64,000 bases of DNA from contig CM026574.1 of assembly GCA_015143295.1 (NCBI GenBank), positions 14,820,938-14,884,937 of the forward strand, written 5' to 3'. Source of the stretch: Tetracentron sinense (lineage: Eukaryota > Streptophyta > Magnoliopsida > Trochodendrales > Trochodendraceae). Below the pieces are notes generated by a model. It searched no databases and was not told the DNA's origin. It worked only from the letters and a program-made list of their open reading frames with translations. Both the position numbers and the translations under genes were made by a program. Below, in pieces: positions 41,741 through 43,124 of this stretch. Numbering within the stretch: the stretch's first letter is position 1; each line of letters opens with the position of its first letter.

Positions 41741-43108
41741 ATGAGACGGAACACACGGGGTCGTGGACCACATACCAGAGCTTCCTCTTCTTCACGGGAT
41801 GAGGATGAGCAGCCGGACCTCTCTCAGGTCTTAGGCTCTATTGCTGAGACACTCGCCATACTGGCGGCTCGGCAAGCTATACCATCAGCGGCGGCACCTA
41901 CTCCACCGCCCGCAGCTCCAGTACATCGTACCGCTGGAGTTGAGGCATTCAGGAGATTGAGGCCTCCACCCTTCCATGGGAGTGTGGACCCTCTTGCTGC
42001 GGAGGCATGGATCCTCCAGATGGAGAAGATCTTTACGGTCCTCTCACCTACAGAGGAGGAGAGAGTAGCATGGGCAGCTTTCATGCTAGAGGGTGAAGCC
42101 CACCATTGGTGGTTGTCCGCATTGAGGACGAGAGACTCGACCATGCAGGGTCTACCTTGGACTTGGAAGGAGTTCAATGATACTTTTTACAAGAAGTATT
42201 TTCCGATTGGAGCACGGGAAAAGAAAGAGAGGGAATTCATCAACCTTGAGCAAGGTTCGATGTCTGTGGCCGCTTATGAGGCCAAGTTCTCGGAGCTATC
42301 ACGCTTCGCGACTCACATGGTTGCCACCGAGGCAATGAAGGCAAGAAGGTTTGAGCAAGGGCTCAAGGATGTTATCATGGAGAAGGTTTCAGTCTTCAGA
42401 CATGCTACCTACCCTGAGGTAGTAGACAAGGCCTTATTGGTCGAGGCCAATTCAGAGACAGTGTCCAAGAAGAGGGAGTGGGCGAGAGGCCAAGCTAGTA
42501 GTTCAGCACCTCCAGAGAGGCGGACTCGTTATCAGTATGCGTGGCCAGCACCATCGATGAGGCCTTCTTATGCGCCTCCAGCTCCACGGCAGTATGTGCC
42601 TCAGGCACCGAGACCTCAGGCTCTTCCAGCCCCACGGCTTGTTGCACCCCAGACGATGAGGTATGCTCCGCTTCCAGCCCCTCCGACTTATACACACGAG
42701 GTCTGCACTTCATGCGGTAAAAGGCATCCGGCAGGAGATTGTCGAAGAGCATCTGGTGGATGTTATCATTGCGGTCGCCAGGGCCACATGATCAGGGATT
42801 GCCCCAGTCGGCATTTATCAGGCCAGTCTCAGGGGATTAGTCCACCAGCACGCCCAGCAGGATCATATCAGGCGTCATCTCAGACTACCCGGTCTACACC
42901 ACGGTCTCGCCAGGCGAACCAGGGGCGAGTTTTTGCCTTGACAGAGGGTGATGCACTTGCATCTGACGATGTGGTGCAAGGTACGCGTTTGGAGTTATTT
43001 TCCTTATTCGTGATGGTTATGTTATGTTTTATCCCATGTGTACGTACTTGGTATGCTATATATGTATATACCTATGTGTATACACTGTTGATGCTTGAAT
43101 TGACGTAA
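41741..43108 (+). CDS. gag: Gypsy gag (exon 1 of a spliced gag-pol)
   Basis: The start ATG is at 41741. Residues 1-65 are a polar and Pro/Ala-rich leader. Residues 66-245 are the retrotransposon Gag domain (WILQMEKIF, WWLSALR, WKEFNDTFYKKYFP, EFINLEQGSMSVAAYEAKF). A Pro/Ala/Tyr-rich linker follows. Two zinc knuckles come next: CTSCGKRHPAGDC (322-334) and a canonical CX2CX4HX4C knuckle CYHCGRQGHMIRDC (341-354). It packages element RNA into cytoplasmic particles. At residue 413 (VVQ) a consensus donor AAG|GTACGC occurs. If unspliced, the frame runs 42 more residues of mostly hydrophobic, aromatic sequence to the stop at 43106-43108; if spliced it joins pol. Confidence 0.93.
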   Translation: MRRNTRGRGPHTRASSSSRDEDEQPDLSQVLGSIAETLAILAARQAIPSAAAPTPPPAAPVHRTAGVEAFRRLRPPPFHGSVDPLAAEAWILQMEKIFTVLSPTEEERVAWAAFMLEGEAHHWWLSALRTRDSTMQGLPWTWKEFNDTFYKKYFPIGAREKKEREFINLEQGSMSVAAYEAKFSELSRFATHMVATEAMKARRFEQGLKDVIMEKVSVFRHATYPEVVDKALLVEANSETVSKKREWARGQASSSAPPERRTRYQYAWPAPSMRPSYAPPAPRQYVPQAPRPQALPAPRLVAPQTMRYAPLPAPPTYTHEVCTSCGKRHPAGDCRRASGGCYHCGRQGHMIRDCPSRHLSGQSQGISPPARPAGSYQASSQTTRSTPRSRQANQGRVFALTEGDALASDDVVQGTRLELFSLFVMVMLCFIPCVRTWYAIYVYTYVYTLLMLELT

Positions 43109-43124
43109 CTAGCTAAAATTTCAG
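42981..43124 (+). other. Putative GT-AG intron between gag and protease
   Basis: Donor CAAG|GTACGC and acceptor AATTTCAG|GAGC, 144 bp, T-rich (TATATATGTATATACC inside). Removal leaves VVQ-GALLVNECLARVLIDTG in one frame: 1240 nt of gag plus 3326 nt of pol give 1522 codons with the stop. The pol frame has no ATG between the acceptor and the protease motif, so splicing gives the simplest explanation for its expression. Confidence 0.75.

Follow-up and report, generated by a model that had tools for sequence, protein, structure and literature searches.

A putative spliceosomal intron at the gag–pol border of a chromovirus-like retrotransposon family in Tetracentron sinense

We analysed a window of 64,000 nucleotides from the genome of Tetracentron sinense (GenBank assembly GCA_015143295.1, contig CM026574.1, positions 14,820,938 to 14,884,937, forward strand), which contains a complete Ty3/gypsy long terminal repeat (LTR) retrotransposon. 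Judged from genomic DNA alone, the segment at positions 42981–43124 of this window is very probably a spliced U2-type spliceosomal intron, the removal of which fuses Gag and Pol. That splicing also controls the ratio of Gag to Gag-Pol is a further step, towards which we lean slightly. Copies found across the genome indicate that the intron is shared by the thousands of members of a chromovirus-like family that has been active recently.

Boundaries and phase of the putative intron

The Gag reading frame runs from the ATG at 41741 to a TAA at 43106–43108, and pol is open in the same frame from 43109 to 46450, with this one stop between them. The donor CAAG/GTACGC places the start of the segment at 42981 and the acceptor TTTCAG/GA its end at 43124. 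An earlier reading of the window, made from the letters alone (the sequence-only reading), had proposed both sites, and the 144-nt segment they delimit is confirmed. The intron would lie in phase 1 and interrupt the protein between Gln and Gly; the Gly codon that it splits is GGA whether the segment is present or removed. Exon 1 comprises 413 codons plus one base and, by arithmetic, the spliced fusion has 1,521 residues, which bears out the in-phase Gag-Pol of that length claimed earlier. The open reading frames (ORFs) likewise agree with two further claims, namely that no ATG precedes the protease motif of pol and that Gag stops early without splicing, at the TAA.

Among 100 in-frame GT–AG pairs whose removal would take out the stop (70–300 nt apart, within 42900–43250), the pair 42981/43124 came out on top by a crude home-made score. 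For the candidate branch point TTGAC listed in Table 1 (43100–43104) we assumed the usual plant consensus. An Rfam search returned no match. The segment has 34% GC and 42% T, and is flanked by 600 nt of 56% GC and 21% T before it and 600 nt of 46.5% GC and 29% T after it. Excerpts available from PMC3735527 describe a T-rich, GC-poor composition as typical of plant introns, and by this yardstick the high T and low GC of the segment count for an intron.

Intron-bearing copies and their length classes

All genome-wide pattern and similarity searches were run against the genome from which the window comes (1.16 Gb). The donor boundary occurs at 6,874 sites (at most one mismatch in 22 nt) and the acceptor boundary with intron at 3,668 (at most two mismatches in 26 nt), with reversed controls of 0 for both; the two patterns are unequal in stringency, and the counts give rough sizes. 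A 351-bp query around the segment yielded 40 scored sites at 99–100% out of 3,446 candidates, and 31 other sites match the full query at 100% as printed. The pol frame of 1,113 amino acids is found as in the window at 48 of the 150 listed places (counted by eye), one of which has a TGA inside the match.

Loci L001–L120 were picked by likeness to the window, 47 of the 150 listed places not being fetched, and 117 of the 120 could be placed (all except L043, L064 and L086). By sequence, 102 loci are distinct: 99 carry an intron of 142–146 nt, one carries an intron of 85 nt and two are without intron. The 85-nt version, at L084, keeps donor and acceptor, and its deletion seems to lie between two GTACG repeats.

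Intron length was also measured in 73 donor–acceptor pairs, found by exact pattern matching. Of the 100 places listed for each boundary, 99 donors and 85 acceptors were used; 26 of these donors were without a listed acceptor, and the remaining acceptors lay beyond the donor list. The lengths are 137 nt (1 pair), 142 (11), 143 (3), 144 (27), 145 (8), 146 (5), 148 (16), 149 (1) and 204 (1), so that 45 of the 73 are not a multiple of three. Within the 46 C1 pairs with letters shown, the haplotype GACGATGTAGTG with GGAACCC has a 148-nt intron in 10 of 10 cases, which argues that an out-of-frame intron has been inherited through many insertions. L044 and L048 have a 143-nt intron and still hold a pol frame of 1,113 amino acids. 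In each of the 99 distinct copies whose intron measures at least 142 nt, Gag terminates before pol if the intron is left in place. Only splicing would give every one of these length classes the same Gag-Pol.

Intron-free copies

The intron-free junction was found at 39 sites on 22 contigs (30-nt probe, at most three mismatches, genome-wide; control 0), about 1% when set against the 3,668 intron-bearing acceptor sites. The A type, GGAGCC as in the window, accounts for four of these junctions, and the B type, GGAACC, for 35. A gap-tolerant search that allowed 0–30 leftover bases gave 29 sites, and by match length none of the 29 retains any. Random deletion of DNA is expected to leave remnants, whereas reverse transcription of spliced RNA does not, and the clean junctions thus favour reverse-transcribed spliced RNA.

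One of the 59 loci placed among L001–L060, L032, lacks the segment exactly at CAAG/GAGCC, and L062 is a second such place. L062 is a whole LTR element, with LTR ends and its own target site duplication, CATCA. It shares its left flank with L032, the right end of which was not found in the piece fetched; we take the two to be a single insertion, later duplicated. L061 and L062, 109 kb apart on C22 and alike in their left flank, apparently hold one intron-free insertion twice, as a segmental or assembly duplicate. Elsewhere, intron-free junctions occur in pairs some 7.2–7.7 kb apart (C1265:24850 and C1265:32548; C9:23871896 and C9:23879134), and may represent tandem elements with one LTR in common. 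At four listed native intron-free places a single open frame of 1,536 amino acids is present; the fused Gag-Pol frame therefore exists in nature.

The A and B types are each found with and without the intron, as are GTAGTG and GTGGTG. Two linked B letters stand beside the intron end at 1,665 sites, and the same letters recur in the intron-free L125–L127 and L131, so that intron-free copies carry the haplotypes of at least three intron-bearing subfamilies. Such sharing calls for repeated loss, RNA recombination or parallel change, and we favour at least three intron losses. With an exact junction, one target duplication and haplotypes in common with intron-bearing copies, the intron-free copies are better read as reverse-transcribed spliced RNA, though the AU test described below does not settle the matter. 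The sequence-only reading had regarded sister elements without the segment as speaking against its intron. They are literally present, both as about 1% of this family and as other families, but the family's own intron-free copies are better read as retrocopies.

Relatives and other families at the gag–pol site

Database relatives are gapless at the site: Citrus P0122 reads ...NDVVSGTLSLF... and Fagus P0104 ...PTVVTGTLVVL..., with Vitis P0108 gapless too, where the window has ...DDVVQ / GALLVNE.... The protease motif searched for is present in 31 of 144 proteins, of which 30 join without an insert (by eye) and one, P0063, is rearranged. Since the relatives are partly gene models, more weight falls on genomic DNA. 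A piece of Fagus P0104 across the junction, a query that favours intron-free places, was compared with the window's genome; 148 of the 150 listed matches (150 of 13,311 candidates) cross the site, and many of these places hold single frames of 1,463–1,550 amino acids. The outgroup family C (L128 and L129; about 73% DNA identity) keeps DDVVQGALLVNECLARV without the segment.

At the protein level, the best match to Gag has 56% identity over 66% of the query (24 hits from 7,997 scored candidates of 250–796 amino acids), and the first 300 residues of pol have full-span matches of up to 63% (among the best 120 of 7,945). Scans of viral contigs gave no relative.

Alternative explanations

Several observations, from the splice sites to the AU test, weigh against a spliced intron that was lost repeatedly. 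The donor GTACGC departs from the consensus at +4 and +6. Conserved splice sites in related elements, for which the sequence-only reading had proposed to look, are there, GT and AG being kept in all 113 placed loci with an intron longer than 100 nt (some are one place fetched twice); this invariance carries little weight, as only about 1.3 changes are expected at the four sites, by an estimate from variant rates. Nor does the segment give a clean sign of being free to vary: change per site amounts to 1.0% in the intron, 2.8% in the last 600 nt of gag and 0.7% in pol, less than in the gag end and only slightly above pol, where the rate is lowered by the choice of copies for their likeness. Counted by codon position (1/2/3), distinct variants number 11/18/18 for the intron, 23/11/32 for pol (first 340 nt) and 91/92/109 for gag (last 600 nt). 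Since gag is as flat as the intron, this letter test cannot separate coding from non-coding sequence; it is uninformative for the 42-residue tail, and the case rests on length and stops. Some of the database relatives are gene models from which an intron was perhaps predicted away, and two of the A-type intron-free places count as one duplicated insertion. The trees do not decide between loss and a single gain. In favour of loss, a tree of about 1.2 kb with midpoint root has L032 and L062 inside the intron-bearing copies, with a support of 0.989 for the set of five; a tree with outgroup C and shorter sequence gives mixed support. A single clade of intron-bearing copies is not rejected by the approximately unbiased (AU) test (p 0.91), and the tree constrained to it, the better one found, is 20 log units above the free tree from a quick search that had failed to reach it.

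From the tree alone, the intron-free copies could be pre-intron relics. Intron-free would then be the ancestral state, with the intron gained once and never lost, and splicing would be left unproven. Besides the AU test, the intron-free outgroup family C fits this history, as do the four fetched B intron-free copies, which differ from one another by 3.8–7.6% and are thus not young. We nevertheless regard it as unlikely: the haplotypes shared across both forms would need repeated change or recombination, the A intron-free copies fall among intron-bearing ones in the free trees, if with mixed support, and a segment gained with exact GT..AG inside the gag-pol of a still-mobile family would itself need splicing. 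Stop read-through is a real rival because gag and pol share one frame with a single TAA, which ribosomes might sometimes pass into a 48-codon spacer; the same frame and one stop are found in the window and in 88 of the 92 distinct 144-nt copies. The length classes led us to reject it. Intron length varies and is often not divisible by three, so that read-through is no option for most copies: the 45 of 73 pairs that place pol out of frame, including the 148-nt haplotype (10 of 10) and L044/L048, refute it for those copies, relatives do without the spacer, and intron-free copies lack exactly the GT..AG segment. What is left to it is a very small probability. The spliceable gag–pol intron of the sequence-only reading thus finds support in the exact intron-free junctions, in the four continuous frames of 1,536 amino acids and in the exclusion of read-through for out-of-frame copies. 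Least credible of all is a decayed insertion that broke a single copy. It would account for the early stop of Gag, but is refuted by the thousands of copies that carry the segment, by the 1,113-residue pol frame in 48 of 150 listed places (one with the TGA inside the match) and by the 31 other sites identical over the full 351-bp query.

A spliced intron might also be passive, setting no ratio and persisting because the packaged genome is drawn from a separate unspliced pool. This explanation shares the splicing step with ours, so that the two are not mutually exclusive, and we hold it to be possible, though doubtful. The Gag tail is not fixed, since among the 99 distinct copies with at least 142 nt of intron 7 have a length not divisible by three, and a second in-frame stop occurs in 4 of the 92 copies of 144 nt; other families in the same genome are a single ORF without intron; and separate RNA pools are known in BARE from the available part of PMC3735527. 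Against a passive role stand the 99 of 99 distinct copies that end Gag before pol when unspliced, so that retention yields Gag alone, and the intron-free copies, which stayed near 1%.

Proposed mechanism and known systems

In the mechanism we propose, unspliced RNA would be translated into Gag with a short tail and would also serve as genome, while spliced RNA would give one continuous Gag-Pol; partial splicing would keep Gag in excess over Gag-Pol. With the intron retained in about 99% of copies, unspliced RNA should be the usual template, and this intron-bearing RNA would give rise to nearly all new copies. Inefficient splicing at the off-consensus donor, separate RNA pools as in BARE or poor spread of intron-free copies may be the cause. 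Occasional packaging and reverse transcription of spliced RNA would produce the intron-free copies (about 1%), which would be at a disadvantage. We consider the chances evenly balanced that the intron was gained after the split from an intron-free sister family and became an obligatory Gag/Gag-Pol switch, with intron-free copies, for want of a Gag excess, hardly multiplying. The intron would then persist in thousands of copies even though every cycle could remove it. Where spliced RNA is the template, retroelements lose their introns, and the retention of one in thousands of copies calls for an active explanation. Both forms stand side by side in one genome, with subfamilies and length classes, and the frequency of spliced-RNA copying and the spread of intron-free copies can be counted there directly.

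The system that works most alike appears to be Ogre, at another border; its logic, this suggests, has arisen a second time, in a chromovirus-like element. In Ogre (Ty3/gypsy, Tat lineage; pea and Medicago), the portions of PMC6317226 at hand describe a partially spliced intron between polyprotein parts, the splicing of which permits the whole polyprotein. The logic of partial splicing towards a whole polyprotein is the same, but the Ogre intron lies between protease and reverse transcriptase (RT), whereas the 144-nt intron here lies upstream of the protease. The sequence-only reading rightly placed Ogre-type introns at other positions, and we reject membership in Ogre because the intron lies between Gag and protease.

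BARE1 (Ty1/copia, barley) has a 104-nt facultative intron near the gag–pol border that sets the supply of Gag; its spliced RNA gives Gag only, and amplification yielded no DNA copies of that RNA, according to the sections available of PMC3735527. Both elements thus have a short intron near this border, with opposite polarity, and intron-free copies were found here. In EVADE (Ty1/copia, Arabidopsis), alternative splicing sets Gag supply by removing the protease for a short GAG mRNA (PMC12786077, in part). Splicing would fuse Gag and Pol in our element instead of removing the protease.

The centromeric retrotransposon of rice, CRR, is a chromovirus. Spliced transcripts of this element, also Ty3/gypsy, are cited in the available text of PMC3735527; its splicing removes rt and creates two ORFs. 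Plant LTR elements are generally without introns, with Ogre and EVADE as notable exceptions, in the accessible parts of a 2025 review (PMC12786077), and sunflower copia elements show spliced isoforms in those of PMC7730604. In what was available of Neumann et al. 2019 (PMC6317226), Bianca and Ogre have ORFs separated by a stretch and most groups have a single ORF. Our element differs from Tekay/Del, its presumed clade (see below), in that separated ORFs are named there for Bianca and Ogre; in this genome, other families likewise cross the site in a single ORF. A search of open-licence papers, seen in part, found no intron in a Tekay element.

Structure of the element and further features

The element is complete (Table 1), both LTRs having the ends TGTAGAG...GCGACA and the insertion being flanked by the 5-bp target duplication CTAAA. 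LTRs, target site duplication, primer binding site, polypurine tract and the domain order protease, RT, RNase H, integrase (PROT-RT-RH-INT) are those of Ty3/gypsy. We tentatively assign it to the Tekay/Del clade, which it resembles in domain order, long LTRs and a weakly chromodomain-like C-terminus. The primer binding site TGGTATCAGAGC is presumably of the initiator-tRNA-Met type. In Pfam, the integrase core scored below and its zinc domain above the cut-off, and Chromo matched the C-terminus at E 4.9e-05 and 23.6 bits, under the cut-off of 25.1. With the tandem array excluded, 6 of about 2,090 sites differ between the LTRs; at substitution rates of 1.3e-8 to 7e-9 the insertion would be 0.1–0.2 million years old.

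Table 1. Features of the retrotransposon and its putative intron, in window coordinates
Feature	Position	Strand	Evidence
Target site duplication CTAAA, left	38825..38829	+	element ends
5' LTR, 2551 bp, internal tandem array ~39170-39600	38830..41380	+	
Primer binding site TGGTATCAGAGC	41385..41396	+	sequence
Exon 1: gag, ATG to predicted splice donor, capsid and CCHC domains	41741..42980	+	ORF; Pfam Retrotrans_gag, Ty3_capsid, zf-CCHC
Putative intron, 144 nt, GT..AG, phase 1	42981..43124	+	
Candidate branch point TTGAC, A 21 nt upstream of intron end	43100..43104	+	by eye
TAA terminating Gag in unspliced RNA	43106..43108	+	
Exon 2: pol (protease, RT, RNase H, integrase parts, weak C-terminal chromodomain), stop included	43125..46450	+	ORF; Pfam
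Polypurine tract AAGGGGGGGAGGA	46540..46552	+	sequence
3' LTR, 2601 bp	46553..49153	+	
Target site duplication CTAAA, right	49154..49158	+	element ends

Tandem arrays with copy spacings of about 23–97 bp lie in both LTRs (39170–39600 and 46890–47400). The 3' LTR is 50 bp longer than the 5' LTR, which argues that array length changes within a single insertion. Outside the element, the window holds an open frame of 227 codons at 23091–23774, which resembles a copia-type integrase in its motifs.
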